From: an uncultured Methanomicrobiales archaeon
GTDB taxonomy: Archaea > Halobacteriota > Methanomicrobia > Methanomicrobiales > Methanospirillaceae
Assembly: GCA_903926075.1 (NCBI GenBank)
Contig: CAIYHQ010000128.1
Span: forward strand, 62,001 to 126,000
Direction: 5' to 3'
DNA: 64,000 bases
Shown piece after piece: positions 1-26,640 of the stretch (its first letter is position 1; each line of letters begins with the position of its first letter). The position numbers and the translations under genes are program-made. The notes beneath the pieces are model-generated. The model was not told the origin of the DNA. It saw only the letters and a program-made list of their open reading frames with translations, and made no database searches.

Positions 1-113
1 TCATACAAAGAAGAGTATGTGAACAGGGATTTCCTGTCGATTCGGGAAAGTCCCGAAAATAAGGAGGAGAAACGAGGGCTTGAGTCCGAGGAAAGAAAAA
101 AGATTTCCACCAT
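1..113 (-). CDS. Partial unidentified reading frame downstream of ehaO
   Basis: A minus-strand frame opens with ATG at 113 (MVEIFFLSSDSSPR...) and runs off the left edge after 37 codons. An AGGAGG lies 13 bases upstream, which is rather far. In canonical eha operons the next genes after ehaO encode polyferredoxin-type subunits, but these 37 residues contain no cysteine and are not recognisable. A competing complete 61-codon frame covers 1-186 on the same strand and overlaps ehaO. Either may be spurious. Confidence 0.25.
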   Translation of the reverse strand, partial: MVEIFFLSSDSSPRFSSLFSGLSRIDRKSLFTYSSLY

Positions 114-161
114 CGTAGCCGTGCAACCTCCTGGATATAGTAATATAGGGATACCATAAAG

Positions 162-1247: not shown

Positions 1248-1699
1248 CAGGGTTCAGCCTTAAAGTCAGGAAAGATTTTTGGTATCTGGGCAAGAATCGC
1301 AGCGATAATCTCGGTTGGACGTGGAGGACATCCAGATACATTGGCATAAACCGGAATATGCTTTGAGACAGGCGGGTCGATATATGACCCTCTCCTATTG
1401 AATACTGAGCCGGATTGTGGACAATTGCCAATTGCTATTGCAGCCTTTGGCGCCGGAATTTTATCCCATAAAATACGAAGCTTATCATCCCATCCAGGAG
1501 TAAATGCTCCAGCGACAAGGAGTATATCTGCTTCCCTTGGGTTGTTATGGATAACTATACCATATTGCCCGATATCATACCTTGGAGCAAGGCATGCAAG
1601 CACCTCAATACCACATCCATTGCATGAACCTGCATCAACATAACACACATGGATGGAACGCCTCCTCACAATGTTCATTATAGATTGAAATGCTGTCAT
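1247..1699 (-). CDS. ehaN: Energy-converting hydrogenase Eha, small subunit (EhaN)
   Basis: This 150-residue NuoB-like small subunit carries the proximal [4Fe-4S] cluster that takes electrons from the NiFe site. Visible ligands are CNGC in the segment DAGSCNGCGIEVLA (about residues 26-29), the Cys of AIGNCPQSGS, and the Cys of VSGCPPRPTEI. It is compact like other group 4 small subunits. The ATG overlaps the stop of the DUF1959 gene upstream (ATGA), and its own stop overlaps the ehaO start. Confidence 0.9.
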   Translation of the reverse strand: MTAFQSIMNIVRRRSIHVCYVDAGSCNGCGIEVLACLAPRYDIGQYGIVIHNNPREADILLVAGAFTPGWDDKLRILWDKIPAPKAAIAIGNCPQSGSVFNRRGSYIDPPVSKHIPVYANVSGCPPRPTEIIAAILAQIPKIFPDFKAEP

Positions 1700-2085
1700 T
1701 TTCCAAAAATCTCCCTTAACTGGGAGAGGCCATCATTAATTGCCTTCTCGATTGACGTTCCGGCTGCAATTGACATTTCAACAGATCGGATAATGCCCTC
1801 CATCTGTTCCTTACGGTATAATGGGATATGCAATACAAAAAAACGGTATCCTATCTCATGGGCGACCCTGCTGACTGGCGTTTTATCATTTATTCCGGCT
1901 TGATAGTGTGTAGGAAGATTTTCAAGCGAGACCATATCAAAATTCTCTATCAGATATAGTCTTAATTTCTGAGGTGGTATTTTCAGCCTTTTAGATATTG
2001 CCTGAATTATACTCTCATGTCTTGAACTCGTGAGAATTGCATATTTCATTCCGGTAAGGTCATTTTCATGGAGGAACCGGGTCAA
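1696..2085 (-). CDS. ehaM: Eha subunit M (DUF1959 family)
   Basis: This soluble 129-residue protein lies between the small membrane subunit and the hydrogenase small subunit, the position of EhaM in canonical eha operons. The sequence resembles the DUF1959 family known only from methanogen Eha clusters (segments such as ISKRLKIPPQKLRLYLIEN and HEIGYRFFVLHIPLYRKEQ). No cofactor motif or membrane segment is seen, and its molecular role is unknown. The start is TTG, overlapping the preceding stop in a TTGA arrangement. Confidence 0.8.
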   Translation of the reverse strand: MTRFLHENDLTGMKYAILTSSRHESIIQAISKRLKIPPQKLRLYLIENFDMVSLENLPTHYQAGINDKTPVSRVAHEIGYRFFVLHIPLYRKEQMEGIIRSVEMSIAAGTSIEKAINDGLSQLREIFGK

Positions 2086-2324
2086 ATTAAACCCCCGAAC
2101 TTCATTATTCCATATAATGCAAAGATAAGTATACTCACCGAGAGAGCAGATATTTCAATCAAATGCAATTTCCATTCATTCCTTGAAAAGTAAAAGATTG
2201 TTCCAATTAGTGTGACACATATTATAAAAAGAGCCTGTATTGCTATTGAAGCCCTCTCCAATATTTGAATTATGATTATACAGATATATACTATCCCTGC
2301 TAATCCGATTACTTCCCTTATCAA
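2082..2324 (-). CDS. ehaL: Small membrane subunit of Eha (EhaL-like)
   Basis: An 80-residue protein with about three hydrophobic helices. The start chosen is TTG at 2324, which overlaps the ehaJ stop in a TTGA arrangement; a longer frame to 2363 would overlap ehaJ by 43 bases and is less likely. Size and position between the NuoH-like subunit and the DUF1959 subunit match EhaL (DUF2104 type), though ehaK in other methanogens is also small and hydrophobic, so the letter is by synteny. It probably forms part of the membrane arm. Confidence 0.65.
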   Translation of the reverse strand: MIREVIGLAGIVYICIIIIQILERASIAIQALFIICVTLIGTIFYFSRNEWKLHLIEISALSVSILIFALYGIMKFGGLI

Positions 2325-3163
2325 AGAAATACCCCCAGAATTACGAAATATGCAAGTGAACAACCGGTAACAAGCATCTCAATTGATACACTGTCATAAG
2401 GAGAAAGCACTGGTGTGAAAGCACAGACAAATGCAAGAATGACTATAAGGAGGACCATAAGGATTATCACTGGAATTATAGCAGTTATTCCAAAAAAAAC
2501 GACAATAAAGGTTGAAAGGAGCACAAATATTTTAAGGCCGTCGCTTATCATTAGTGCCGCCCTAAAAACCCCAAAATGTTCAGTTCTGCATCCACTTATA
2601 AACTCTTTTCCTTCAACAGCAGAGAATGGACCAGATGGCATCTTTGCGAGGATTACAAGGAACATTGCAACAGCTGCAGGGAATGCAATGATGATAAGGG
2701 GACTATGAGATAATTGATAATCTGATATCCCGTTGAGTAAAAGGGTATGGGTGAATATTACAATACCTGCAATACTTACAAATAAGGGGACCTCTGACAT
2801 TGCAGAAATAATAGACCTTGCTCCTGCAAATTTTCCGTAAGGGGAACCTGTTGAGAGACCAAGTCCATATTCTACAATTTTATCAAAGATATAAATTCCA
2901 AAAATTATTATCAGGTTTCCTCCGGTGAAAAGGACAATAAAACCCGTAGTCCAGATACCCAATTCTATAACAATTAGCCCTGCAAAAAGGCTTTTCCCTG
3001 CAGTGACAGGTATCCATGTTTTTTTCCCGCCAAATTTTAGCATATGCAGTATCTCCTGCCAGACCGGTGGCCCTGGGCGACCCTGGATCCGGGCTATAAT
3101 CTTTCTATGAATGCCAAGCAGGAGAAGTCCAAAAAAAATAGCAAAGATAAGTTCAGGAATCAT
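2321..3163 (-). CDS. ehaJ: Eha membrane anchor subunit J (NuoH/HyfD-like)
   Basis: This 280-residue polytopic membrane protein belongs to the NuoH/complex I subunit 1 family, which anchors the hydrogenase module and couples it to ion translocation. The characteristic segments RIQGRPGPPVWQEI (cytoplasmic loop 1) and the conserved acidic loop SAVEGKEFISG are present, with about eight hydrophobic helices. The start is taken as ATG 3163; a TTG two codons upstream is also possible. A TATA-like box at 3183-3194 sits about 26 bases upstream, so this gene seems to head a transcript now that ehaH lies 40 kb away. Confidence 0.88.
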   Translation of the reverse strand: MIPELIFAIFFGLLLLGIHRKIIARIQGRPGPPVWQEILHMLKFGGKKTWIPVTAGKSLFAGLIVIELGIWTTGFIVLFTGGNLIIIFGIYIFDKIVEYGLGLSTGSPYGKFAGARSIISAMSEVPLFVSIAGIVIFTHTLLLNGISDYQLSHSPLIIIAFPAAVAMFLVILAKMPSGPFSAVEGKEFISGCRTEHFGVFRAALMISDGLKIFVLLSTFIVVFFGITAIIPVIILMVLLIVILAFVCAFTPVLSPYDSVSIEMLVTGCSLAYFVILGVFL

Positions 3164-3182
3164 TTTCAACCGGACTACAATA

Positions 3183-3194
3183 GAAATTTATAAA
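3183..3194 (-). promoter_or_regulatory. TATA-like promoter element for ehaJ-L-M-N-O
   Basis: On the minus strand the sequence reads TTTATAAATTTC, centred about 26 bases upstream of the ehaJ ATG. That spacing is typical of archaeal promoters giving a leaderless or very short-leader transcript. Prediction rests on sequence and spacing only. Confidence 0.55.
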
Positions 3195-3218
3195 AAATAC
3201 GGGGAGTGTCATATTATT

Positions 3219-4148
3219 TTATATCCATTTAAACAGTGTGACAACATCTCCATAATCAATTCTTCCGTTTTGGTTGTAATCAAAAGAATTTAATGGCTCA
3301 TTTAAGCCAATCCATTCAATCTGCTGACTATAAAGGGTGACATCATTGTAATCATGCACAGAATTTCCATTAACATCGCGATAAAGTGAATCTCCATCAA
3401 TAGACTTAGGAGGATTATTTATTCCGGGAAGTGGCAGGATTTGCAATTGACCCGGGATTGTGGGTAGTGTTGTCACCCATGGTGTTGTCACCCCGGGTGT
3501 TGTTACCCATGGTGTTGTTACCTTGGGTGTTGCCGGAGGATAAGATCCAGATACAAGAAAAGCCCTGACAGTCGTCGCCTTGCCTGGATATACTATAACA
3601 GATTCCTGATACGGCATGTATCCAGGATATGTAAGTTCAATTACATGATTTCCAGTTAATACACCCATAAGGGTTGTCGGAGCGTATCCCTTTATTTCTC
3701 CATCTAGAGAGATGTGGGCTCCGGGTGGCTCGCTCATAACTGAAATCATACCTTGCCCGGATGAGGGAGATGGGGGAAGCATACCACCACCGATTCCTTT
3801 CGTAAGTGATGCAATTATAACATCAGTCTGTCCATTCAATATAGACCTCGTATCAGTCCAGTCCTTGTAACCCTCTTTTATTAACTGTATATAACGTTGT
3901 CCAGGGTATACATAATTCAGGGTCAGAGGAGTTGAACCTGCATATACGGTGTCTACGAAAACTGATGCTCCAGAAGGGATTGATTGGAAGACAAATGTGC
4001 CTCCTTCGCGAGAATTGTCATACGAGGTAAGGTCTGAAATACCTGTTACCGGGAGAATACTTAATCCTGCAATAAAGAAAAATAAAATTAGACATTTTAA
4101 AGTAATTTTATATGAAATTGTACTTTCACTCTTATGCCGCAGATTCAT
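3219..4148 (-). CDS. Secreted PEGA-domain protein with C-terminal dockerin/EF-hand-like segment
   Basis: This 309-residue protein has an N-terminal hydrophobic segment (about residues 18-36) that could be a signal peptide or anchor. Two PEGA-type beta domains follow (about 48-115, with IPSGASVFVDTVYAGSTP, and about 132-200, with EPPGAHISLDGEIKGYAPT). A Thr-Pro-Val linker with WVTTPGVTTP repeats comes next. The end has two D-x-N-x-N-x-x-D calcium-loop-like motifs (RDVNGNSVHDYNDV and FDYNQNGRIDYGDV), as in dockerins. PEGA domains are common in methanogen surface proteins and probably mediate envelope interactions. It lies just outside the ehaJ promoter and is the first gene of the accessory region. 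Confidence 0.75.
   Translation of the reverse strand: MNLRHKSESTISYKITLKCLILFFFIAGLSILPVTGISDLTSYDNSREGGTFVFQSIPSGASVFVDTVYAGSTPLTLNYVYPGQRYIQLIKEGYKDWTDTRSILNGQTDVIIASLTKGIGGGMLPPSPSSGQGMISVMSEPPGAHISLDGEIKGYAPTTLMGVLTGNHVIELTYPGYMPYQESVIVYPGKATTVRAFLVSGSYPPATPKVTTPWVTTPGVTTPWVTTLPTIPGQLQILPLPGINNPPKSIDGDSLYRDVNGNSVHDYNDVTLYSQQIEWIGLNEPLNSFDYNQNGRIDYGDVVTLFKWI
3467..3532. repeat. Short tandem repeat encoding a Thr-Pro linker
   Basis: About four units of 18 bases (GTTGTTACCCATGGT-like) repeat in tandem inside the PEGA gene and encode TTPWVTTPGVTT-type linker residues. Such repeats vary in number by slippage. Confidence 0.7.
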
Positions 4149-4187
4149 AAATCATCCTCTTTCGTATTCATCGTTCCCTTTGACAGG

Positions 4188-4889
4188 TTAATGCAGTCTT
4201 GTCGCGTTCCACGAATCGCTATCGTCTGTTTTTTGAAGGAAAATACTGTATGTTCCATTGAAAACTGATCCATCTTCTGAAAGGACAAAGTTAAAATTCC
4301 CACTTTCGGTCCATTTTCCTGATACCGTCTTTCCATCTTCAGAAACGGTCCCTTCAAATGTCCCTGGTTCGTCATTTATGTTTGACCATGGCTGATAAGA
4401 ACCAGTTACTACTGTTCCATTCTGGGTGAAAGTCTGGTTTGTCCGTGTTGAATTCCAGTTGCCGCTCCATGTGTTATGGGGGCCGGATACATTACCAACT
4501 CTCTTACCACCAGTTTTATAGGTTTCAGACGGGTTACGGCCTCCTTCAGGGCGTACTGCGCCAATTCCCGAGTAACTCATCCCGTCCTCTGACATAACAA
4601 GATTAAGAGGCCCGGATTCAGTCCACACTCCCGAAAAAGCCTTTCCTTCTGCCGATAAAGTCCCGGCTAATACACCTGGATCACTCGAACTGATATTATC
4701 AGGTTCATAATTCCCGCTTATTACTGAACCGCTCTGTTTGATGGACAGAGTATATAATTCAGATTTCCATGTCCCGTTCCAATTGTTACTCGAATGACTT
4801 ACCTCACCAGATTTCTGGCCGATAAAAGCAATACCCAGTAAAATTAGGGCAATTATAACAATTACTCCAATTATAATAAGATTTTTCAT
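4188..4889 (-). CDS. Membrane-anchored protein with two tandem beta-rich repeats
   Basis: The 233-residue product has one N-terminal transmembrane helix (about residues 3-22) and then two copies of a roughly 75-residue domain. Each begins WNGTWKS/WSGNWNS and passes through a G-x-Y-x-P segment, a short GTLSAEGKAFSG / GTVSEDGKTVSG turn and VWTESG / KWTESG. The periodic turns suggest a lipocalin- or beta-barrel-like fold facing outside. The start was set at ATG 4889, directly before the hydrophobic segment; a TTG seven codons upstream is possible. Function unknown. Confidence 0.7.
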   Translation of the reverse strand: MKNLIIIGVIVIIALILLGIAFIGQKSGEVSHSSNNWNGTWKSELYTLSIKQSGSVISGNYEPDNISSSDPGVLAGTLSAEGKAFSGVWTESGPLNLVMSEDGMSYSGIGAVRPEGGRNPSETYKTGGKRVGNVSGPHNTWSGNWNSTRTNQTFTQNGTVVTGSYQPWSNINDEPGTFEGTVSEDGKTVSGKWTESGNFNFVLSEDGSVFNGTYSIFLQKTDDSDSWNATRLH

Positions 4890-4910
4890 CCTTTTTACCA
4901 CACCTGGCAA

Positions 4911-5286
4911 TATAAATAGACTAATTTAACAGCATATAAAGGTTTTTATTCGTAATGGGACAAAAATAAGGACTATAGATAAAGAAGGGTAATAAGAATA
5001 ACCGGAATCCAACCAGGCGGACCTATATTATTTAAGCGATGAAAACGGGTTTATTCATTTCACGATGACCGGGAGGAAGAAGTAATTCCACTCCTTTATA
5101 AACCCTGGAGCGACCCTGCGGGGCACGCCACGACTCGATTCGCTCGTTCCCAGGCGTGCCCCTCCGGGGGGGTTTGTGTTGAAGTGAAACAAAATCACTT
5201 TTTGTTATCAAAATTGTAAATCATCATTTATGAGAATAAAAAAGATAGAGTCACACATTTAAATTACAACTGAACAACATTTAATT
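4911..5286. other. Intergenic region with a GC-rich element
   Basis: No gene is supported here. The middle (about 5090-5175) is GC-rich relative to its AT-rich surroundings and contains the inverted repeat annotated separately. It shares a GAGCGACC/GATCGCTCC-type motif with intergenic repeats near 40.5 and 42.0 kb. Confidence 0.5.
5120..5162. repeat. GC-rich inverted repeat (hairpin)
   Basis: Perfect 10-base arms GGGGCACGCC (5120-5129) and GGCGTGCCCC (5153-5162) flank a 23-base loop. It resembles a palindromic intergenic repeat of the REP type or a stable RNA hairpin. There is no poly-T tract directly after it. Confidence 0.7.
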
Positions 5287-5463
5287 ATGGATATTAAGAC
5301 GAGAAATTACTTAATAATCGCAGCAGGAATTGTCTTCCTTTTGATTGGCTTATTCAGTATAATGGCTTCACAGGGCATATGGTATTATATCACTTTCATC
5401 CTTGGCATAATTATTATAGTTCTTGGTCTAGTAGGACTGAAGCAGGGCCGAGTCATAGGATAA
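5287..5463 (+). CDS. Small two-helix membrane protein
   Basis: A 58-residue protein starting MDIKTRNYLIIAAGIVFLL has two hydrophobic helices (about 7-24 and 31-49) separated by a short polar turn and ends in KQGRVIG. A weak AT-rich promoter-like stretch precedes it. It is too short to identify; the two-helix pattern resembles small methanogen membrane proteins of unknown function. Confidence 0.55.
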   Translation: MDIKTRNYLIIAAGIVFLLIGLFSIMASQGIWYYITFILGIIIIVLGLVGLKQGRVIG

Positions 5464-5527
5464 TCTTTTTCCCAATTATTATTTTACTGGTATCCAATTT
5501 ATTAAAAGAGGAAAGAAAGTTTTTATT

Positions 5528-6160
5528 TTATGTTTGGAAACCTTTAATTTTTTGGGCAGCTGCTGATGCAAGTTCCTTTCCGGCAACAAGATCTGGATTT
5601 TTACCTGATATATGGAATATTTCATATACATTTCCCTTTCCGAATACGATAAAATAGCCCTGAAGACCTGGAGCAATATCGTTTGGTGCAATATATTTCC
5701 ATATTCTACTCACTTCGCCTATTCCGGGAGTTGGAAGTTCATTTATAATGTATGTTGAATATTCAGGATATCCCTCATTTAATACCTGTTCCAGTGTTCC
5801 ATTCGTTACGGGCTTTGAATAGATCATCACATTTTGTTCAACCGTCGTGTTTTTTCCATTATCCACGGTAACAGAATACCCTTCTTTCATACATAATGTG
5901 TCTCCTGTGCAGTTAAGATCAGGATTTAGCCAGTCGTTATGAGTAATTGAAGAACCTTTTGGAAGATCCTGCGGAAATAGAGCAAGTGTTACCACTGAGA
6001 CAGACTCATTTGCAGCCGGGACATTTGGAGTTGAAACGACTCTTGTTTGAGTCTCGTTGATACCATTTATTTTTACCTGGTTTGTTGAAGGAGAAGTACA
6101 ACCACTGAAAAACATCATACAAACAAGTGAAAGAAATACAAACAGACTAACCCACTTCAT
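5528..6160 (-). CDS. Secreted lipoprotein of unknown function
   Basis: The start is set at ATG 6160 because it gives a normal lipoprotein signal peptide (MKWVSLFVFLSLVCMMFFSGC), with the lipobox FSGC at about residues 19-22; the frame extends 27 codons further upstream. The mature part, about 190 residues, is polar with no recognised domain; the middle CTGDTLCMKEG could form a disulfide. A decayed duplicate of an internal piece of this gene is found at about 7096-7196. Confidence 0.7.
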   Translation of the reverse strand: MKWVSLFVFLSLVCMMFFSGCTSPSTNQVKINGINETQTRVVSTPNVPAANESVSVVTLALFPQDLPKGSSITHNDWLNPDLNCTGDTLCMKEGYSVTVDNGKNTTVEQNVMIYSKPVTNGTLEQVLNEGYPEYSTYIINELPTPGIGEVSRIWKYIAPNDIAPGLQGYFIVFGKGNVYEIFHISGKNPDLVAGKELASAAAQKIKGFQT

Positions 6161-6246
6161 AGTATATCGATGTAATGTGTATATCTGATAGGTTATAAAT
6201 TCCAACCAAAAGAAAATGAACACGATAAAGAGCCGGTCCAATTATT

Positions 6247-6462
6247 GTGGTACCTGATTGGACAGGCTCAAATCGATATGATTCTACCGGGACAAAGGTT
6301 TCAAGCAATGATTACCTACATCAGATCATTATGTTTGGACTTGATATGTCTCAATTAAATAAGCAATATGTTGTCAGCATGATGAACTATGTTGCAGCAG
6401 CCAAGTGGGTGGAAGAATCTGAAAAGTTATCCAAGTCCGAGGAAGAGAAGAAGAAAAAATAA
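6247..6462 (+). CDS. Short hypothetical ORF, possibly a 3' gene fragment
   Basis: The 71-residue frame ends in a highly charged KSEEEKKKK tail. The start (ATG 6247, MVPDWTGSNRYDSTGTK) does not look like a natural N-terminus and has no clear ribosome-binding site, so this may be the surviving 3' end of a larger gene. No family recognised. Confidence 0.35.
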   Translation: MVPDWTGSNRYDSTGTKVSSNDYLHQIIMFGLDMSQLNKQYVVSMMNYVAAAKWVEESEKLSKSEEEKKKK

Positions 6463-6553
6463 AAGTTTCAATAGTTTTTATTTCAATCATTAGGTGTAAA
6501 GATAGCCTTTTAAGATGTTGTCGTTATTTTTATCCTCTTTAATTTTTTCCTTT

Positions 6554-6690
6554 GGATAATCTTCTGAACGATCATAATTACAAACCTCACACTTTCACAC
6601 TATCTATAGGGAGCCCATTGATGATCTTGGGTTGTCCACAATAGTGAGAGGTGCAGTCTCGATGGGCCGATCTGTCGAAGAGATTAAGAT
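6554..6690 (+). repeat. Degenerate direct repeat, copy 1
   Basis: This segment is about 75-80 percent similar by eye to 7197-7334. Both share the core CACTTTCACAC...TATC and a tail that would encode GRSVEEIK/GRSVEELK. The reading frame (IDDLGLSTIVRGAVSMGRSVEEIKIWL) ends in a stop and has no start, so it is a gene remnant rather than a gene. Confidence 0.55.
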
Positions 6691-6817
6691 ATGGCTTTAT
6701 CAGTAATTCACCCATCAATAATTGTTTGTATTTGTTCCTTTGAGTTACGCCTCAACATCAAAGGGGCTCACTAAAGCTGCAGTTTATTAAACTAGTAAAA
6801 TAATATGAAAAAATTGT

Positions 6818-6997
6818 ATGACCGACGCACAACCACCCGATGTGATGAAAAAACTTGTCTTGTTTATCATTGGTATCGCAATTTTGGGCACGATTATTGC
6901 ACTGGCAGTGTACTTCACCGTTAACCTGCCGGCGCAGCAGGCTTTGCTTCACGCTCCCATGAACACTGGTATTATTTATCCTAAATTTCCAATATAG
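6818..6997 (+). CDS. Small single-pass membrane protein (family with copies near 27.4 kb)
   Basis: The 59-residue frame starts MTDAQPPDVMKKLVLFIIGI, has one long hydrophobic helix (about 12-32) and continues NLPAQQALLHAPMNTG before an early stop. The same pattern (polar start, x-x-D-x-(L/M)-K-K-L, one helix, PAQQ/PQQQ, HAP/QAPTN) is seen in two pseudogenes at 27054-27371 and 27414-27655. Those continue into a cysteine-rich tail, so this copy is probably truncated at the 3' end. Function unknown. Confidence 0.45.
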   Translation: MTDAQPPDVMKKLVLFIIGIAILGTIIALAVYFTVNLPAQQALLHAPMNTGIIYPKFPI

Positions 6998-7095
6998 TGA
7001 GCCGGTTATTGCTTCGATAGCGTAGATATTACTGTCGCCACTCCCGACATATACGACTCCATTCACTACTGATGGCGATGATCTACTTACGCTAT
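6958..7095 (-). pseudogene. Remnant of a PQQ-type beta-propeller repeat protein
   Basis: The minus strand encodes one recognisable propeller blade: SSPSVVNGVVYVGSGD followed by NIYAIEAITGSLYWKF. This matches the repeated blade of PQQ-like propeller proteins that are abundant in methanogens. Nothing else of the protein remains on either side, and the region is overlapped by another gene remnant on the plus strand. Confidence 0.6.
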
Positions 7096-7196
7096 GTTTT
7101 TTACATTATCCACGGTAACAGAATACCCTTCTTTCATACATAATGTGTCTCTTGTGCAGTTAAGATCAGATTTTAGTCAGTCTTTATGAATAATTG
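7096..7196 (-). repeat. Decayed duplicate of a segment of the 5528-6160 lipoprotein gene
   Basis: The run from the TTATCCACGGTAACAGAATA motif through TCATACATAATGTGTCTC and CAGTTAAGATCAG matches 5850-5950 with few mismatches. It is out of context and not part of an open frame, so it is a duplicated fragment. Confidence 0.7.
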
Positions 7197-7334
7197 GATA
7201 ACCTTCTGAATGATCAACATCATTACTAACCTCACACTTTCACACGGTCTATCGGGAGCTCATTGATGATCTCGAATTGTCCACACTAGGGGGAGGTGCT
7301 TTATCGATGGGTCGATCTGTCGAAGAGTTAAAGA
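7197..7334 (+). repeat. Degenerate direct repeat, copy 2
   Basis: This is the partner of the repeat at 6554-6690. Its translation contains YRELIDDLELSTLGGG followed by GRSVEELK and then stops. It directly follows the lipoprotein-gene fragment, which suggests the whole 5.5-7.3 kb stretch arose by duplication followed by decay. Confidence 0.55.
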
Positions 7335-7426
7335 TCTTTGTAAATGTTATCGCTAACAGGTGAAAGAAGACATCACGAGCTATTTTGGGATTGAACAGGA
7401 TTTATGCAGAACGAGTTATTCAAAAA

Positions 7427-7540
7427 ATGACGGCCAATAGCGAACTCACGTTTAGTGGACTGACTGACCCGCTGGAGGCAGTGGTTTTCTCAGTTCTCAT
7501 CGAGATGGAGAGAGACCTGGAGGAGATGAAAAACGCTTAA
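7427..7540 (+). pseudogene. Short gene remnant
   Basis: A 37-codon frame (MTANSELTFSGLTDP, ending EEMKNA) continues an open frame without a start upstream (RIYAERVIQK). The composition is that of a coiled, charged protein C-terminus. It is probably the last piece of a lost gene. About 190 bases without features follow before the first kinase gene. Confidence 0.3.
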
Positions 7541-7758
7541 TGGTGTTCATGGTTTATTTCCGGTTGAGGTGGGGTTTGCGATACGATTTCGTCAGATTCT
7601 ATTAAATTCATTGTCTCGTTTCAATTTTTCAAGCCTTGATAACTATAAATTTGTGTTCATAAACAGGAAATTATGCATTTAAGAAGGAAATAATCATAAA
7701 CAAAAAATGATCTATCAATACCGAAAGATATGTGCTGATAGACATACAACGGAGTGTA

Positions 7759-16255: not shown

Positions 16256-17938
16256 CTACGTCGTAATCGAGGAAGCGAATAGGTGATCCAATCCAATAAT
16301 CTTCAATGTTTCTAGAAGGTCAGGAGTAAGATTTAGGTAAACCGTCCTTGGCTCACCGTCAATAGTAACTTCTGTTCTTTGCACCCTGTTCATTTTTTTG
16401 AGGAAAACAGAAACACACTCATTAGTATCGTTAGGGCTTATTGACTTGAACAAACAATTTAACGCGGCTAAAATTCTTAAAGAAAGTACATTAACCGAAA
16501 TAATTGACATTACACGTTCTTCTAACCTATGTCTGACCGGCATAATTTCTCTTTCAGATTTTAAATTTTGGAACTTCTTTTCGATGAAATCTTTGCCAAA
16601 ATATTCTTCCACTACTTCAGAAGCACTTAAATTATCATTCGTTGAGAGTATTGCCCATTTTCCATCTGCTTTTTGAGCCTTTTCAATTGCTTCATTGTTA
16701 AAATCCCATTTACCAGTTACTTGAGAGTTATCACATTCAAGCAAAATTGAAAAAAATTGATAATATGAGTTAAGAGTTGATTTAATAACTTTTTTTAACT
16801 TCTTTTCATCGAAATTGGAAGGATTTTTTAGTAATTCATCTAGTTTTTCTGAAAGAATGATCAGAGTTGAATTTCTGTCTTCAGTATTAACTGCCCCAGC
16901 CCGTTTATTCGCATACACGGTTATCGAACGCATTTTTCCAAAAACACGAGATGTTACTTTTTTAGCATAAATATGTCCACAAACTGTTGTTTTAACATGA
17001 TGTTGGGGAGTTAAGGGGACATCGGTTTCCAACAGAATATTTCGAATTGCGATAGATGTTTTTGGTAAACCACATATAACCTCCCAATGGAGCCTTTCCA
17101 TGGTTTTAATTGATTTATCAGATACATTACCTCTATCCCAAATTACTGTCCCTGGATTAACGCTGATATCACTTAATCGACAAAATAGATTATCAACTGT
17201 GGTAATTGACTGTCGGTTACCGGAATAAATGAAATGAGCAATGGGATATTTATCAAATTTTGAGACCAATATTGCTAAATTGACCTGTTTTCGACGAATA
17301 TGTTCTGCATTATAACCCATATCTGAAATTGGGCATGAATCGCCATGAAATAAAACAGCTGTCATATCATATGCAAGAACTTCACTTTCTCCAGATGGCA
17401 AAGGATGGGAATGACGCCAATGTTGATAGATTTCATCTTCGATTGCTGGTGATTTATCTATAAGTTTGTCAGTTTTTGGGTCTTTATAGCAAATAAAATC
17501 TAGGGATTCTAAAAAAATATCTTTTGAAAATGATTCTGGTGCTATTCCAGATAGTAGGGGTAGATCGGTAAATCGAACCCATTCTGATATTTGAGTTGCA
17601 CTTTCAGGGTCAATGACTCGATTTATTGCAAAAATTGAGATGATTTTCCCTGGTGTGACATCGGGCAATTGCTCACTCCCAAAATTCATCCTATCAATAA
17701 CCTCTCGTATTTTCAATTGTTCTGCCAGGTGCCAAAGAACTGTAACATCGCCAGATTGCGTCGTACGCGAAAAATTTACACTCCGATTAACATTAACGTG
17801 TTTTCGTGAAGGTATTTTTGGCTCTCCTTCCACTCCGATGTATCTGACATAGGTACTTTTAACCTTCCCGTTTACCCGTTCAGACTTGTACTCTGCCTGA
17901 TATACTCGACCACCTCGCTTATGTCGTTTAATTGCCAT
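16256..17938 (-). CDS. IS1634 family transposase
   Basis: This 560-residue DDE transposase starts MAIKRHKRGGRVYQAEY, a typical IS1634 N-terminus. Catalytic region candidates are the Asp of LAYDMTAVLFHG, the Asp of VIWDRGNVSDKS, and the Glu in FIEKKFQNLKSE. ATG 17938 was chosen over a start 17 codons upstream because the N-terminal MAIKR matches family starts and the upstream residues lie in the palindrome. The frame is intact, so the element may be active. Confidence 0.85.
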   Translation of the reverse strand: MAIKRHKRGGRVYQAEYKSERVNGKVKSTYVRYIGVEGEPKIPSRKHVNVNRSVNFSRTTQSGDVTVLWHLAEQLKIREVIDRMNFGSEQLPDVTPGKIISIFAINRVIDPESATQISEWVRFTDLPLLSGIAPESFSKDIFLESLDFICYKDPKTDKLIDKSPAIEDEIYQHWRHSHPLPSGESEVLAYDMTAVLFHGDSCPISDMGYNAEHIRRKQVNLAILVSKFDKYPIAHFIYSGNRQSITTVDNLFCRLSDISVNPGTVIWDRGNVSDKSIKTMERLHWEVICGLPKTSIAIRNILLETDVPLTPQHHVKTTVCGHIYAKKVTSRVFGKMRSITVYANKRAGAVNTEDRNSTLIILSEKLDELLKNPSNFDEKKLKKVIKSTLNSYYQFFSILLECDNSQVTGKWDFNNEAIEKAQKADGKWAILSTNDNLSASEVVEEYFGKDFIEKKFQNLKSEREIMPVRHRLEERVMSIISVNVLSLRILAALNCLFKSISPNDTNECVSVFLKKMNRVQRTEVTIDGEPRTVYLNLTPDLLETLKIIGLDHLFASSITT

Positions 17939-17958
17939 GTAGGTGATATAACACCTAC
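17939..17958. promoter_or_regulatory. Palindrome at the transposase start
   Basis: Perfect 7-base arms GTAGGTG and CACCTAC are separated by ATATAA directly upstream of the transposase ATG. It may be an operator, a transposase-binding site or an mRNA hairpin limiting expression. Confidence 0.5.
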
Positions 17959-18098
17959 AAAAAAATAAAGGTATCGATGAAATCCTCAAGTTGTTTCAAA
18001 AATTAAGCCAAAATATAGGTTTTAATTAAATTGTAGGCGTTACGCGCCACGCTAATAGTGTTACTCAAGTAGTAATAACTTCCACGAGTCATACTAGA

Positions 18099-19247
18099 TT
18101 GACAGTAAGTGAATTATGGCGAAGATATCGGCTTCTTGTTGATTCTACGATTTCTTATCAGAGTTTTTTTAATCGGATTGATAGCCGTTTTTGCATTTTT
18201 GTTCGCACTGTGCTGTTTAATTCGATTGAAAAAGTATCTGAAAACGCATTACCTGAAGTTAAAGCAAAATATCAGCGATTCCAATCAATTTTTATCAAGG
18301 ACAACACAGTCATCCGACTTCACGAAAAACTTGCAAAAAAATACCCCGCGACACGGTCGAGAAGAGTAATAGCCGGGTTAAAAGTTAGCGTTCTTTTCAA
18401 CGCTATCAGATTGACTCCGACAAGTATCTCATTCGTGAGTGAAAAAACTCATGACATAAAAACATTAAAAATTGGGCCATGGATTCGTAATTCATTGATT
18501 ATTATGGATCTGGGTTTTTATCGACATTGGACGTTTGCAAAAATTATCGAAAACAAAGGATTTTTTATTAGTCGGCTGAAAAAGAATGCAAAACCCCGAA
18601 TTGAAAAAATTCTAACACCCTGTCCGGATTTTTTCTTACAATCAATTAAGGGATTATCATGGAATGAAATTCTTGAAAAATACCCCTATGATCAGTTTGA
18701 AGCAGTTATTTCATTTCCATTTAAACGGCATAAAAATAATGGAAAACGTAAACAGGATATGCTAAAAGTCCGCTGTGTGGCTAGGTATAACCGAGAGTTA
18801 CAAACTTGGCATTCGTATATTACAAATCTGCAGAGAGATGAATTCTCAGTCGATGAAATTTATGAATTATATCGGTTTCGTTGGGAAATTGAGATGATAT
18901 TTAAAGAGTTAAAATCCGAGTTTGATCTAGGAAAAATCTCAACGAAAAAAAATAAGGTAATCGAATCACAAATCTACTGTTGTATACTAAAACTTGTTTT
19001 GAGTAGGCAATTATTCCTCATCCTTCAAATAAATAGTGCTGAAAAATCTGAACAGCATTATAGTCCATTGCTCTGGACACGAGTCTTTCAGGAAAATTGT
19101 TACAAAATACTTGATCTTATTCGACATGAATTGAAAGGAAATGTATTTCTTGATCAATTGTGGGGAGAATTATGTCATCAATTAACGGTTCTCTCAAAAC
19201 GATATAAAAAGGGACCCTCACTTCACCAGGTAATATTCACACTATAA
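18099..19247 (+). pseudogene. IS4-type transposase, 5' end interrupted by the IS1634 element
   Basis: A 382-codon frame (TTG 18099) encodes an IS4-type DDE transposase: FIKDNTVIRLHEKL, LIIMDLGFYRHW and the Y-x2-R-x3-E-x6-K signature YRFRWEIEMIFKELKSEF. The frame is open upstream (VITSTSHTR) right to the IS1634 right end at 18055, and a fragment at 22845-23081 shows what precedes this point in a related copy (YVIIFSTKSHTQMTVSELW). So the natural N-terminal part is missing or lies on the other side of the IS1634 element. The catalytic domain looks intact. Confidence 0.75.
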
Positions 19248-19486
19248 AAATAGAAGTGAACAGTTTCGTCATCAATTGATTGAGCCTGGGCTATAGAAAA
19301 AAAATGATGATATTTACGTTATTTCTCTTATTCTAATGTGTGAAACGTTTTAATTCGATTTATTATTGTATTTTTCCAGTTGTTGAATGTCATGAGAAAA
19401 AAAATTGGCATCTGACTTAATTTATCAATATGAATTAATATTACAAATCTTAAATTATGTGTGAATTCAAGGAAGATTTGACCTTA
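19248..19486. other. AT-rich gap between transposase and methylase remnant
   Basis: No gene is supported here. The stretch holds the presumed right end of the IS4-type element, but no matching inverted repeat could be identified because its left end is disrupted. Confidence 0.4.
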
Positions 19487-20597
19487 AACTGAGATACATG
19501 AAGGTGATCTAATTGCAGACTTCTTCGCCGGTTCCGGTACTAGCCTTGCAGTAGCCGAAAAACTTGGTCGTAAATGGATAGGTTCCGATCTCGGCAAATT
19601 TGCCATTCACACCACTCGCAAAAGGATGATTGGTGTCCAGCGGGAGATGAAAAAATCAGGAAAAGATTTCCGGGCTTTTGAAGTCCTCAACCTTGGCAAA
19701 TATGAACACCAGCACTATATTGGAATAAACGAAAATCTCGGTGATGAAGAAAAACAAAAACAACTCGAACAGAAGGAGAAAGATTTTGTTGCACTCATAC
19801 TTCACGCTTATTGGGCTGAAATTGTTACGAATTTCTCTACTTTTCACGGAAAGAAACAGAACAGGCTAGTATCAGTAGGACCGGTAAATCTTCCGGTCAC
19901 CCGGCTCTTTGTTGAAGAGGTTATCTCTGAATGTAGACAGAAAAGAATTACGAAAGTGGATATCCTTGGATTTGAATTTGAGATGGGACTATTCCCCAAC
20001 GTACAGGAAGAAGCAAAGTCTAAAGGTATCGACCTTTCACTCAAATATATTCCGCGTGAAGCCTTTGATAAACGGGCCATCGAGAAGAACCAGGTAGTAT
20101 TCCACGATGTCTCATACATAGAAGTAACTCCTCATATCAAAGGGAATTCAATATCAGTAGAACTCACTGACTTTTCAGTCCATTATAACCAGGACACGAT
20201 TGCAAATGCTGAAGCCATGCTTAAAGAAGGTTGAAGCAAAATTGTTGTTGATGACGGCCAGATTGTAAAAATTATTAAAGATAAAAGTGGAGTTGTAAAA
20301 AGACAAAATCTGACCAGTTCCTGGACCGACTGGATAGATTACCGGTCTGTGGATTTTGATTACGAAAGCAAAAAAGAGATTATCTCTATCAAAAACGAGG
20401 AAGCTATAATCGAGGTGATATGGTCTGGAGATTATATATTTGAAAATGAGTGGCAATCTTTCCGTACAAAGAGAGAACGGAGTCTCGAACTGAAAAGCAT
20501 CTCGAAGGAATGCCTGCTCGGAAGACGAAAGATAGCCGTAAAAGTGGTTGACATCTTTGGAAATGACACAGTGAATATAATCGATGTGTATATCTGA
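19487..20597 (+). pseudogene. mod: Type III restriction-modification methylase (Mod), truncated and interrupted
   Basis: The frame begins abruptly after a stop and encodes the SAM-binding motif I of an N-6 adenine methylase, [20 protein letters not shown], then [17 protein letters not shown] and the Mod C-terminal region. The N-terminal half with the catalytic DPPY-type motif is absent. An in-frame TGA at 20232-20234 interrupts the C-terminal part, after which the same frame continues (SKIVVDDGQIVKIIKDKSG...) to a stop at 20597. It is non-functional as it stands. The KilA-N and Res genes follow immediately, the usual order of such loci. Confidence 0.8.
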
Positions 20598-21423: not shown

Positions 21424-22606
21424 ATGGCACTTCATCCAGAATTCCCAAGTGATCCATATGTTATCCTTGACCCCGATCACCGCTGGTTCCCTGCTGACGA
21501 ACTACTCCGAACAGAAGGATATGAAAAACTTCTGCCACCGCTTGTCGCAAGTCTCCGGAAAAAAGTCAAAACATGAAGAGACAAAGGGTATGAAGGTGCA
21601 AGCGAAACAAGCCGTGCACTAATCGAATGGTGGTTCAAAACAGAACACTTAATTCCACAAGCGGATGGATCATTCTTTCATTTCAGATACTATTTTGCAC
21701 AACGTGAAGCAATCGAGACTATCATCTACCTTCATGAAATAGCTGAGATAAAGGACAAATACGATCTCCTCCGCTACGACAGTTCTCAGGCTATTTCATC
21801 CGGGATGTTTCCTGAAACCTGGAACCGATATGTTGTAAAAATGGCGACCGGGAGTGGAAAGACCAAAGTAATGAGCCTGCTCCTGGCATGGAGTTATTAT
21901 CACAAACTCTATGAGGAAAACTCGATTACTATCCCGAAATTTTCTTGTCATCACCCCTAATATCATTGTGCTCGACAGGATTCGGGCTGATTTCGATGGG
22001 TTAAAGATCTTTTTTACTGATCCTATTCTCCCGGATAACGGATACGAAGGACAAAACTGGCAGGATGATTTTCAACTTACTTTGCATATCCAGGGCGAAG
22101 TCAACATCACACGAAAGACAGGGGATATCTTCCTGACCAACATTCACCGTGTCTATGACAGCAACACCAAACCACCAACCTTTGATGATGAAGACACGAT
22201 GGCATATTTCCTGGGTCCCAAACCCGTGGGAGCAACCACTGATTCTAAACTGGATCTCGGTGACATCGTAAGAGATATCGATGAATTAATGGTTCTAAAT
22301 GACGAGGCTCATCATGTCCGCGATGAAACACTTGCCTGGTTTAAATCAATTCAGGACATCCACAACCGCATTCTTCAAAAAGACGGCAGGTTCTCCATGC
22401 AGATAGATGTTACTGCAACTCCTCGTCATAATAATGGAGCTATATTTGTCCAAACTATTTCAGATTATCCTCTCGTTGAGACAATTTATCAGAACATAGT
22501 AAAACACCCGGTACTTCCTGATTCTGCTAGCAGGGCGAAACTTTCGGGAAAAAAGAAAGCGCTAAAAGAAATTCAACAGGAAATATCTTTTTTGGATCGG
22601 ATTTGA
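21424..22606 (+). pseudogene. res: Type III restriction enzyme Res subunit, truncated and disrupted
   Basis: The frame starts MALHPEFPSDPYVILDPDHRW right after the KilA-N gene. It shows the helicase Walker A motif MATGSGKTKV, the DEAH box LNDEAHHV and motif III VTATPRHN. It is broken by an in-frame TGA at about 21574-21576, by a frameshift near 21930-21940 (the continuation NFLVITPNIIVLDRI is in another frame), and by loss of everything after about residue 390, including the rest of the helicase and the nuclease domain. The whole restriction system is dead. Confidence 0.85.
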
Positions 22607-22844: not shown

Positions 22845-23081
22845 CTAGGTGGAAAAACTTTGATACTTAACATCTGAATCAACAAGAAGCAGATAATGAC
22901 GCCATAATTCACTTACTGTCATCTGTGTATGACTTTTTGTTGAAAAGATTATCACATAGAGAAGATAAACTGAATGAATTTTTCTTAACCATTTAATATA
23001 TCTATTGTCGTTTGCCAGCGTATAAATCTCGGTATAACAAAGGATAGAATCAAATCTACCCTCTTTCTGACACCTGATCAT
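22845..23081 (-). pseudogene. 5' fragment of an IS4-type transposase
   Basis: The 78-codon frame ends YVIIFSTKSHTQMTVSELWRHYLLLVDSDVKYQSF. This matches the beginning of the IS4-type transposase at 18099 (LTVSELWRRYRLLVDS...YQSFF) in inverted orientation, and adds about 50 residues upstream that are missing there. It stops before the catalytic domain. Its presence next to the truncated res gene suggests IS-mediated deletion. Confidence 0.7.
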
Positions 23082-23206
23082 TTCAGGGAAGTAAATATAA
23101 CTTCCAAATTTATAAAAACGAAAAAAATATAAACTCTTGTAATTCTCGTGTTACTGACTAATTTTAGCTCACCTATATGACACTAAATTGAGATGCATGG
23201 TTCCGC

Positions 23207-23791
23207 TCACGGGATGGATCGGCTTCGCTCAAACTCATCGAACTCCTCGCTCGTCAGCCCGAAGAGCAGCTTGTCGAAGTAACGCCCATCCGTATAGAAG
23301 GCGCGTCGGATCCGACCTTCGTCCCGGAACCCGAAGATCCGGTGCAGACGCACAGACGGCTCGTTGCCGCAGAGCGTGATCGAGTTCGCCTTCTGACAGC
23401 GCAGCTCGTAGAACCCGTAGCGCAAGAGCAGCTGCACGGCTTCGGTCGCAAAACCTCGGCGTCGATATGCACGGAAGATGCGGATGCCGAACGTGAAGGT
23501 CCCGCTCCGGTTGTTCCAATCTCGGAGGTTCGCATCGCCCACCATCGTTCCGTCCAACGTCTCGACGACGAGACGAAGATCCTGGTCGGGCGGTTGCTTC
23601 GCCTCGCGCTCGATGCTATCTTTCAGTGTCTCTGGAGATTCGAGCGGTTTGATGGTTCCTTCCGAGAGACGGATAGCCTCGCTGTCCTGTTCCTCCGCCC
23701 GTAGCACCTCTACGTCTCCGACAGAGAATGCCCGCAATCGTATCTTGTCCCCCTGCCAGAAACACCCCAAGGGGGGCAGCTTGTCGCTCAT
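23207..23791 (-). CDS. GNAT N-acetyltransferase (RimJ/RimL-type), GC-rich
   Basis: The 194-residue protein has the RimJ/RimL-like pattern: an N-terminal GDKIRLRAFSVGDVEVL, LVVETLDGTMVGDANLRDWN, the acetyl-CoA pyrophosphate-binding segment FRAYRRRGFATEAVQLLLRYGF, and a C-terminal NEPSVRLHRIFGFRDEGRIRRAFY. It transfers an acetyl group to an amine of unknown identity. GC content and codon use (many CG-rich third positions) differ sharply from neighbours. The gene begins 6 bases after the stop of the Cys-rich gene, so the two form an operon and probably arrived together, likely from a bacterium. Confidence 0.8.
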   Translation of the reverse strand: MSDKLPPLGCFWQGDKIRLRAFSVGDVEVLRAEEQDSEAIRLSEGTIKPLESPETLKDSIEREAKQPPDQDLRLVVETLDGTMVGDANLRDWNNRSGTFTFGIRIFRAYRRRGFATEAVQLLLRYGFYELRCQKANSITLCGNEPSVRLHRIFGFRDEGRIRRAFYTDGRYFDKLLFGLTSEEFDEFERSRSIP

Positions 23792-23797
23792 GTCCAG

Positions 23798-25084
23798 TTA
23801 CCTCCTGCATCTCCGGACCCGTCGCGGATCCGCTCGGGGAATCGCCTTCGTCCTTTGGTCTTCCTCGTTCCATGCAGGTCTCGGCTCGGGCGGGACCATG
23901 CCCGGCAGGTGAAGCAGCGCTTCCGCTTTCAGCCGCACACGCCGCGTTTGGGCGATCTTGGGATTTCTTCCGCGGGTGCCGATGCGCCTCGCAAACAATC
24001 CCGGGCGTTTCGCCTCCACCAGGATTCCGAAGTCCAGCAGCTTGCGGATCAGCTTGGGTTCCATGTCGATCCCAGTCATCCTCCGCATGGCTCGCAGCGC
24101 CTCATTCACCGTGCGGCCTTCGAAGTAAGACAGCAATTCAATGATTACGGCCGGAACGGCGATCGGGTCGTAGCACGAGTACCCCACCACTTGCACGCGA
24201 CCGTCAGCTAGGGGGTGTACCTCGAATCGCCCCGGACAGACGGTACGCGGCAGTCTGGTGGAGCACAGGGCGCGATAGGCCTTGCGTGCCAAGCGTAGAT
24301 AGAGGGCTGCTTCCGGCCCTCCGATGGCGAGCACGTCCCAAGGAGAGAGTGCCGAGACGCGTCGGCCGCATTCGCAGTAGAACTCGGCCTCGCGACCGAC
24401 CCAAGGCCCCCAGAGCGCGAAATGTGCGGCGGGATCTCCGGTTTCCTCCAGCAGGCTGGAAGCGAATTTCGCAGGGATGCCACAATCGGCGGCCTCCATC
24501 GTTCGCTTCAGGTTCTCCTCTGGAAGGCGCAGTTGCGTCAGACACCAGAAGGCCAAGGCACGTTCCAGGCTCTTGAGCAGAGGCTCCATCGCCTCTCTCC
24601 AGAACGTAAAGCCCACCTGTCCTCGCGTATGCTTGCAGAACCACGTCGCACAAGTGGCGTTGCGATGATCCCAAATGCCACAGCGACCGCCAGCCGAATC
24701 CTCAACGTAGTAAGGACAGCACAGGCGAAGTGAGCATCCCATGTACGTGGCCCGGTCATAGAGCAGACGGTATACCGGTGGTTTCTTTAGCAACAGAGGC
24801 GTGGCCATGAACAGTGCGTTCACACGCTCCTCCATGACAGCGCGGGCCTGTGCCATGCCGCGTTCGGTCTCGTTGAGGACATTGCCAACCTGGAAGTTGA
24901 AGAGGTCGGGATGGTAACTACAGCACTTGGTGCGGGGATGGATGTTCCATGTCCCATCCCGTCCGTGTGCCGCGGACAGCAGGACACAGGGCTGACAGAC
25001 CGTCTCACTTTCCGATGGGATGGGACCACCCAAGAACTCGCGCACCCACTGGGCTTGGATAGAAGGGAGTGTGGTATTGGACAT
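23798..25084 (-). CDS. Cys-rich metal-binding-like protein with C-terminal PqqD-like segment, GC-rich
   Basis: This 428-residue protein has two parts. Residues 30-152 hold CxxC (30-33), CC (54-55), C117, CC (122-123) followed by PYY, C135, C145 and C150; the spacing C-P-Y...GGRCGIWDHRNATC is like the YkgJ-type metal-chelating domain (C-P-F...G-x-C-x-I-Y-x-x-R-x-x-x-C). Residues about 315-370 (PAVIIELLSYFEGRTVNEAL, then a helix ending KLLDFGILVE) look like a small winged-helix domain of the PqqD/RiPP-recognition type. The last 50 residues are basic. No signal peptide. It is GC-rich like the GNAT gene downstream and clearly foreign. Family and function were not recognised; the domain readings are by eye. 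Confidence 0.6.
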   Translation of the reverse strand: MSNTTLPSIQAQWVREFLGGPIPSESETVCQPCVLLSAAHGRDGTWNIHPRTKCCSYHPDLFNFQVGNVLNETERGMAQARAVMEERVNALFMATPLLLKKPPVYRLLYDRATYMGCSLRLCCPYYVEDSAGGRCGIWDHRNATCATWFCKHTRGQVGFTFWREAMEPLLKSLERALAFWCLTQLRLPEENLKRTMEAADCGIPAKFASSLLEETGDPAAHFALWGPWVGREAEFYCECGRRVSALSPWDVLAIGGPEAALYLRLARKAYRALCSTRLPRTVCPGRFEVHPLADGRVQVVGYSCYDPIAVPAVIIELLSYFEGRTVNEALRAMRRMTGIDMEPKLIRKLLDFGILVEAKRPGLFARRIGTRGRNPKIAQTRRVRLKAEALLHLPGMVPPEPRPAWNEEDQRTKAIPRADPRRVRRCRR

Positions 25085-25715
25085 GTCTATTGCTATTAAT
25101 TCGTCATTTTTCGGTATTTATAATTATTTGCAGATTAAATTTACCAATAAGTGCCTTTCCAATTAGCAAAATTGTAAAAAAAAAAGTATCGATTTTATTA
25201 AAATCGAGGAGCTTTATACTCTAATTTTTGAAAACGTTATGTCTCCAGGACATATCGGTATATTTATATACTGATATGTCACCAAAAATGGTCCCATTCA
25301 CTGAAGAGTTATATTCAAAGGTTTTTGAAGAAAAACTTCAATCCATTTTAATGCTTGAAATACGTTCCTTGTTTTTTGTGGAACCTTATGCAACAGCAAA
25401 AAATTTCCCATTTTCCCAATTAAAGGCCAATTACCTCTACTGTTCTGATACCTTTATCAAAACGACGAGGAATTTTTACTTTACCCCTTTATAAACTCTT
25501 CACAAAATGATATAACCAAACTGTTTTGAAATAAAGGCAAAAATAATCTATAAAATATCTGCAGTAATTCTATCTTTAAATAGCCCTATTTTATCACTTT
25601 ATCTTAACTGAGAAACGTCACCTGTTTTACTACAAGCAAATGTTCACCTTCAAAATTTAAACCCAGTATAACCCCAATAAATCACCCTAAAAATGGTTAT
25701 TTTTGGAAGGCATTA
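25085..25715. other. AT-rich region after the GC-rich cassette
   Basis: GC content drops sharply at about 25090. Apart from the doubtful reading frame at 25228-25494, nothing recognisable is present. Confidence 0.4.
25228..25494 (+). CDS. Doubtful hypothetical ORF
   Basis: An 88-codon frame; a start at the internal Met (MSPKMVPFTEELYSKVFEEKL) would be more natural. No family, motif or clear ribosome-binding site is visible, and it may be a remnant. Confidence 0.25.
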   Translation: MKTLCLQDISVYLYTDMSPKMVPFTEELYSKVFEEKLQSILMLEIRSLFFVEPYATAKNFPFSQLKANYLYCSDTFIKTTRNFYFTPL

Positions 25716-25973
25716 CTACCTCCCCAAATCAAGCCCCAAAACCTCAACCTTTTCAAAGAACCGGACCGACTGCAGCCCAAGGTACTTGAGCTCGTCATTG
25801 TTGAGGGAACCAGTTTGTTTAAACTTGATATAACAAGCTGTTTCGTCACCAAAGGCGAGAATTACATCAGTTAAGGCTTTGATTCTTCTATTCTTCAAAA
25901 AGGAGGTGAGACCTCCCACCAGGGCAAGAGACCCGGTGAGAAGATGGAACACCTCCTCTGTTCCTATGTTCAT
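25716..25973 (-). CDS. Small hypothetical protein downstream of a secreted-protein pseudogene
   Basis: An 85-residue protein, MNIGTEEVFHLLTGSLALVGGLTS..., with a short hydrophobic stretch near residues 8-24 and a mixed charged C-terminal half. Its ATG follows the stop of the upstream gene within 6 bases, indicating co-transcription. The frame is intact although its partner is frameshifted. No family recognised. Confidence 0.5.
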   Translation of the reverse strand: MNIGTEEVFHLLTGSLALVGGLTSFLKNRRIKALTDVILAFGDETACYIKFKQTGSLNNDELKYLGLQSVRFFEKVEVLGLDLGR

Positions 25974-25979
25974 TGTGTT

Positions 25980-26640
25980 TTATCTCCGTACATTCATGGA
26001 ACGGTTCATTTTGAATTTTCCGTTTGCAAATGTCAGGTCGTCATACTTCATGTGGGAGCTGGTATTCGTCTTGTTGCTGGTTTGAGTGTCCACATGGAAT
26101 TGGGAGAATATCGCACCAACACCCTGAGCGGATAGTGCATAACCCACCCCAGAAGAACTACCGCTGCCGTGCAAAACCACACTTCCTGATGAAAGGAAAG
26201 CGTCAGTTCCGGCAGTGATGCGGCTCGATTCGGCCTTACTGTTTTTCGATCCAGATTGCGAGCCAGAAGGACATAGGTTGGAATCGTCAGAAGATGAGCC
26301 GACAGAATCCGATCCTGTTTCATCGCTATAGACTGATTCACCACCGTCCTGGCTGAAAGCAATGGTGTGGTCTACTCCGTTATTCCCTAATGACATTTCA
26401 CGCGAGAGACGGGATTTGCCGTCTCGCGAAAGGACATTCAGGCTTGAGCCTGACATTTGGTAACTGTCATTCGAGAAGTTTTCAAGGGAACTGGATACAA
26501 TCGACCCCATACTCCCTTCGGTCTCTAACATCTGAACTTACTGTGAGGACTGCAGCTATTGACTCGTATGACAGGACTACTGTCACACCGAGCACCACGA
26601 CAACTACCGTCTTGTAGAGCGTTACTCCAAATGGTTGTTT
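25980..26640 (-). pseudogene. Ser/Gly-rich secreted protein, frameshifted near its signal peptide
   Basis: A signal-peptide-like segment (LYKTVVVVVLGVTVVL, then SYESIAAVLTVSSDV) is encoded near 26530-26625. About 26520-26530 the frame must shift to continue as LETEGSMGSIVSSSLENFSND and a Ser/Gly/Asp-rich body with SGSSSGVGYALSAQGVGA, ending MNVRR. The body is low-complexity, like surface or S-layer-associated proteins. Without the shift the mature part would lack an export signal. The exact start is uncertain. Confidence 0.5.

Follow-up and report, generated by a model that had tools for sequence, protein, structure and literature searches.

A transferred gene pair in a Methanomicrobiales archaeon encodes a member of an undescribed cysteine-rich bacterial protein family with a predicted RiPP recognition element-like domain

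The window analyzed here, a 64,000-nt stretch of DNA from an uncultured Methanomicrobiales archaeon (contig CAIYHQ010000128.1, positions 62,001–126,000), contains a block rich in guanine plus cytosine (GC) that holds exactly two genes, one for a Cys-rich protein of 428 amino acids and one for a GNAT acetyltransferase. The block (23200–25084) has a GC content of 61% against a whole-window mean of 0.415, and nowhere else in the window does GC exceed 54% in 400-base windows. Its edges, at ~23200 and 25084, are sharp; GC is ~0.59–0.63 in 500-base windows from 23250 to 24750 and 0.32–0.38 in the flanks. At third codon positions, GC reaches 0.70 and 0.74 in the two block genes versus 0.29–0.42 in seven genes elsewhere in the window. 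Both open reading frames (ORFs) are intact and lie on the minus strand, the 428-residue gene at 23798–25084 and the GNAT gene (194 residues) at 23207–23791. They are separated by 6 nt, and a Shine–Dalgarno sequence for the GNAT gene (AGGAGGT, 23800–23806) overlaps the stop codon of its neighbor. A TATA-like archaeal box lies 32–40 nt 5' of the 428-residue start (25116–25124, minus strand), although DNA as AT-rich as this yields matches of that kind nearly as often by chance. The rest of the window looks archaeal, with genes for acetyl-CoA synthase/CO dehydrogenase (the epsilon subunit family PF02552 among them), for subunits of an A/V-type ATP synthase and for a bacterio-opsin-activator helix-turn-helix (HTH) protein. 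Neither the 60 nearest relatives nor any of 294 other genomes sampled across the same archaeal phylum contained the 428-residue gene. An earlier note on this DNA had described a foreign, GC-rich block of ~1.9 kb with two tightly coupled, intact genes, and this description was borne out. As base composition, third-position GC and bacterial relatives indicate, the two genes were imported from bacteria by transfer.

The 428-residue protein belongs to a real, unannotated family. It has no match in Pfam, NCBIfam or PADLOC, and its relatives have none beyond chance. About 50 relatives were collected from several bacterial phyla. A scan of genome contigs yielded 25 of them at 28–41% identity, from Acidobacteriota, Myxococcota, Planctomycetota, Gemmatimonadota, Chloroflexota, Bacteroidota and one Desulfobulbaceae bacterium, and phylum sampling contributed ~25 more; the sampled counts (5/297 Acidobacteriota, 4/299 genomes of another class and 20/237 genomes of a Myxococcota sample) include some relatives already known. 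In the tree, the window protein groups with an acidobacterial member (L005), with moderate support and on a long branch. The AlphaFold2 model of the whole protein (predicted local distance difference test, pLDDT, 79; predicted template modeling score, pTM, 0.77) comprises a YkgJ-like domain with eight cysteines, a helical middle, a C-terminal domain resembling a recognition element of ribosomally synthesized and post-translationally modified peptides (RiPPs), and a unique basic tail. Searches of viral contigs, phages and plasmids with the protein gave no match, PDB sequence profiles returned nothing, and defense-system models found nothing credible in the family. A weak match to DUF6001 in one member (E=0.0038) was not reproduced in ten members inspected in detail and was discarded.

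The N-terminal domain (residues ~25–156; 24617–25012, minus strand) is supported by its invariant residues and by hhalign comparison with members of PF03692. All 42 aligned sequences retain C30, C33, C54, C55, C123, C135, C145 and C150 together with R141. The Cys pattern given in the earlier note is present as described, but only these eight cysteines are invariant among relatives. Against 28 YkgJ proteins from archaeal genomes, the family profile scored 50.2 (probability 92%), whereas 30 column-shuffled profiles scored at most 21.9 and a reversed profile 15.5; the aligned part begins at the CC pair and ends with the final Cys. Both groups arrange eight cysteines in the order CxxC...CC...C...C-x-I-Y/W-x-x-R-x-x-x-C...C, with equal spacing around the arginine in the core C-x-[IV]-[WY]-x-x-R-x-x-x-C. 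They differ in that CxxC and CC lie ~20 residues apart in the 428-residue family and 2–3 apart in YkgJ, and in that the family adds the middle and C-terminal domains. Neither the window protein nor any tested relative reached the curated PF03692 cut-off (best weak match E=0.067, among 22 relatives). The suggestion of a YkgJ-like domain is therefore upheld at the level of profiles, with no single sequence above the Pfam cut-off, and the N-terminus is distantly related to YkgJ (CxxCxxCC).

The C-terminal 83 residues (276–358; 24011–24259, minus strand) are predicted to fold like a RiPP recognition element (RRE). Their AlphaFold2 model (pLDDT 93) shows beta strands, three helices and a final strand, and is closest to RREs in the PDB. 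Among the best 50 Foldseek matches, probabilities above 0.5 were confined to RiPP proteins with RREs, namely TruD (0.96), TbiB1 in its leader-bound form (0.92), TigE (0.91), LynD (0.89) and ThcOx (0.57); CteB followed at 0.3. When profiles were compared with those of PqqD proteins taken from related genomes, the score was 22.7 (probability 37%) and shuffled profiles did not exceed 12.5. Fold prediction therefore agrees with the RRE-like winged helix proposed earlier, with weaker agreement at the sequence level. Three Myxococcota members (L128, L129 and L132) continue past the RRE-like domain with additional C-terminal sequence resembling a second winged helix. The tail of the window protein (residues 359–428; 23801–24010, minus strand) is basic, with 17 Arg and 4 Lys in 70 residues, and predicted to be disordered: pLDDT is ~38–41 over most of it, and residues 366–428 are disordered in the model. 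Aligned relatives stop near residue 358–366, apart from short unrelated tails, which leaves it without a counterpart; homology suggested by tblastn was rejected, as the alignments cross stop codons.

A search for short precursor genes in donor-type genomes, as the earlier note had advised, was positive. Nine of 50 loci (L002, L005, L009, L016, L017, L020, L130, L183 and L184), spread over four phyla, carry a gene for a short peptide with a double-glycine leader no more than 500 nt from the family gene, and the peptide is often Lys-rich. L183 carries four paralogues that share the leader MSE(K/Q)NEK..ELS.EEL..VAGG and differ in their cores, and L009 carries five with ...K..VKGG or ...KQLKGG. 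Tandem paralogues in which the leader is constant and the core varies occur in L002, L183 and L009. Three tandem peptides in L002 have a constant leader ending in IVQPNGGAL and variable, basic cores; the remaining six loci have one peptide each, several with Lys-rich cores. Within 500 nt of the gene, 48 kb of sequence contained 12 ORFs with such a leader and a Shine–Dalgarno sequence, whereas 504 kb farther away contained 18, so that their density differs 7-fold (p=4e-6); some of the 18 distant ORFs are further paralogues of the same loci and the pattern was fixed for counting but chosen after examples had been seen. Eleven loci contained nearby ORFs of this kind; L135 and L146 probably do so by chance and were therefore left out of the nine. 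Lys-rich short ORFs were likewise more frequent near the gene (8/522) than farther away (13/3859; p=0.002). The best NCBIfam matches of the peptides were RiPP or bacteriocin leader models (CTB bacteriocin, CCRG-2, bacteriocin signal, Nif11 and NHLP), with CTB bacteriocin NF038167 matching 5 of 17 peptides (best E=1.4e-6).

Bacteriocin-type ATP-binding cassette (ABC) exporter genes accompany two of the precursor loci, L009 and L183; in most other loci, no related exporter was found close by. The Gemmatimonadota locus L009 is a RiPP-like cluster that encodes an HlyD protein and a C39-peptidase ABC exporter, the latter bearing cyclic-nucleotide-binding domains; several VKGG/KGG precursors adjoin the exporter genes (6930–7627 and 43–4541, both minus strand). 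In the Acidobacteriota locus L183, the four VAGG paralogues surround the family gene (4645–7483, minus strand), and two ABC exporter genes lie at 3–4044 on the plus strand. All-against-all BLAST of ~45 loci revealed no general conserved neighborhood, gene sharing being limited to three related Myxococcales loci. These loci (L011, L012 and L014) have a large gcvP-like gene, judged by eye from its start to encode a glycine dehydrogenase, ~90–590 nt downstream.

On balance, and with moderate confidence, we interpret the 428-residue protein as belonging to an undescribed bacterial family whose members would be RRE-guided, probably iron–sulfur (Fe–S), peptide-modifying enzymes of the RiPP type; here it would be an orphaned import. 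A short precursor peptide of the double-glycine type would be held through its leader by the RRE-like domain. The YkgJ-like domain with its eight invariant cysteines would hold an Fe–S cluster, by analogy with FliB, and carry out chemistry on the peptide core, with lysine side chains as possible targets. Cleavage after GG would then remove the leader, and the product would be exported, which in some bacteria would be the task of a C39-type ABC exporter. Transfer brought the gene, along with the GNAT gene, into a part of the archaeal genome rich in insertion sequences; the GNAT may acylate the same or another substrate. As no precursor was found in the region examined, the archaeal protein may be orphaned, may depend on a precursor encoded elsewhere, may have adopted another substrate, or may be heading toward decay.

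Two known systems frame this proposal. The RRE-containing RiPP enzymes (PqqD, TbiB1, LynD/TruD and TigE; PMC7470986) share with the family the C-terminal fold, adjacent double-glycine precursors and, in some loci, a C39-type exporter; the difference lies in the fused enzyme domain, which is YkgJ-like here. RRE-dependent RiPP pathways are already known, and the new part is a YkgJ-type domain as the fused enzyme, of which we found no description in the literature searched. FliB, which methylates flagellin lysines, is described as binding a [4Fe-4S] cluster through a CX4CX3CC motif (PMC8598068). By description rather than by sequence alignment, it resembles the family in its eight conserved cysteines of the CxxCxxCC kind, its length of ~400 residues and its protein substrate. 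It differs in its motif, and the accessible part of that report describes no RRE for it (PMC8598068). No flagellin gene was seen near the family genes, although no search aimed at flagellin was made.

Several observations weigh against this interpretation. The Foldseek E-values were weak, the best being 0.085, and not significant by themselves; hmmscan found no match to PqqD (PF05402) in the window protein or its relatives; and RREs resemble DNA-binding winged helices (PMC7470986). The case for metal binding (Fe–S or Zn) by the Cys domain consists of the eight invariant cysteines. The enrichment p-value for GG-leader ORFs is optimistic because the pattern was defined after examples had been seen. 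Furthermore, 41 of the 50 loci have no clear precursor and no other conserved neighborhood, and the 64-kb window itself yielded no credible precursor candidate.

The GNAT partner adds little to the functional picture. Judged from its Pfam match (Acetyltransf_3, PF13302, 68.3 bits vs a cut-off of 25.4; E=1.5e-18), it is an ordinary RimJ/RimL/SpeG-like acetyltransferase, and its closest plasmid-borne relatives share 33–37% identity. The recurring pairing with a GNAT gene that the earlier note had advised looking for did not emerge. In 22 genomes with the 428-residue family, matches to the window GNAT were on other contigs or far off, and an adjacent GNAT occurred in one other lineage only, the sister Myxococcota loci L134 and L136, where it lies just downstream and belongs to a different subfamily. 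With ~90 neighboring gene slots examined, one GNAT is about the chance expectation by our own estimate. No evidence for a toxin or resistance function, also raised previously, was obtained. The pairing is not absurd, because GNATs acylate RiPP lysines elsewhere, as described for selidamides and nostolysamides (PMC13060382); yet it is unsupported. Those systems likewise have a GNAT beside a RiPP-type enzyme (PMC13060382), whereas the window GNAT is RimJ/RimL/SpeG-like, has no precursor in the window and shows no conserved linkage. A bolder version of the proposal is that the family defines a new RiPP class, in which an Fe–S enzyme unlike known RiPP maturases modifies, and perhaps N-methylates, lysines of double-glycine-leader peptides, with the archaeal GNAT acting on the same side chains and the pair representing cross-domain transfer of RiPP tailoring; this we regard as rather unlikely.

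Insertion-sequence remnants and a broken restriction locus litter the region around the block. On the left flank, a broken restriction gene (ResIII fragment, 21911–22606) is followed by a decayed insertion sequence (22853–23200, minus strand); the broken gene agrees with the dead restriction locus mentioned in the earlier note. The element keeps the start of its transposase (22845–22925, minus strand) and has lost the remainder, and its terminal repeat CACTAAATTGAGATGCATGG (23181–23200) abuts the left block edge to the base. Matching copies in the same genome (C18, C46 and C110) end at this repeat, and the DNA beyond it differs from copy to copy (L172 and L173); the opposite end of a copy in C18 carries an inverted, slightly different version. 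The right block edge is the start codon of the 428-residue gene, with AT-rich DNA beyond, and no repeat was found there (25084). An integron cassette, suggested by the exact gene edges, was rejected, given that there is no space for an attC site between the GNAT stop at 23207 and the insertion-sequence end at 23200. Farther away, a DDE_Tnp_1 transposase copy (18099–19501; terminal repeat 19482–19501) is immediately followed by an apparent part of an interrupted DNA methyltransferase and adjoined by a transposase-like ORF without a Pfam match (16256–17989). Starting ~600 nt right of the block, a segment (25670–26100) recurs at other places in the genome, with 90% identity in C43 (over 367 nt) and 81% in C102.

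Such surroundings fit an accidental import that is decaying and has no function in the archaeon. This alternative is a real possibility, though short of probable. It would also accommodate the missing precursor, the unconserved GNAT pairing, the absence of the gene from the archaeal relatives surveyed, and the unique unstructured tail, which suggests a shifted stop codon. However, both reading frames are intact, and the eight cysteines and R141 have been kept despite the long branch, implying selection over at least some of the protein's history, perhaps in the donor.

Two other alternatives concern the function of the family itself, and we consider each unlikely. The protein could be a metal-sensing or Fe–S DNA-binding regulator, whose Cys domain senses metal or redox state and whose winged helix binds DNA. 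Winged helices are mostly DNA-binding, unrelated neighboring genes in most loci are as expected for a stand-alone regulator, and HTH regulators are the main false positives according to the authors of RRE-Finder (PMC7470986). However, the domain search returned RREs and no DNA-binding winged helix of comparable probability among its best 50 matches, even though the PDB contains many structures of the latter kind. A regulator would also leave the adjacent GG-leader peptides unexplained. Alternatively, a FliB-type enzyme could act on a whole protein, with the neighboring peptides being coincidental or basic substrate proteins. The YkgJ/FliB-type Cys domain, the many loci without precursors and the Lys-rich small proteins in L005, L184, L016, L020 and L002 are compatible with this view, but features typical of RiPPs speak against it, namely variable cores behind double-glycine leaders, paralogues in tandem and C39-ABC/HlyD exporters. 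Finally, an assembly chimera or contaminant, a concern raised at the outset, would fit the sharp GC edges, one of them at a repeat, and the lack of a copy in the 294 other genomes, but is very improbable: the block lies in the interior of a contig no shorter than 126 kb, with one edge exactly at an insertion-sequence end, estimated contamination is 0.19%, and misassembly at the junction is unlikely because the insertion-sequence copy there is only ~72% identical to the others.

No feature is shared by more bacterial RiPP pathways than the RRE domain, and a new enzyme domain fused to an RRE is a sign of new chemistry. Since neither Pfam nor NCBIfam has a model for the present family, it would escape genome mining tools that depend on these databases. 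If the 428-residue protein does represent an RRE-guided peptide-modifying enzyme, the loci L005, L184, L016 and L183 would provide ready precursor–enzyme pairs, and a function could be assigned to a YkgJ-type Cys domain; domains of this type are very widespread, yet almost no activity is known for them. The archaeal copy would then be a peptide-tailoring enzyme that has crossed domains.
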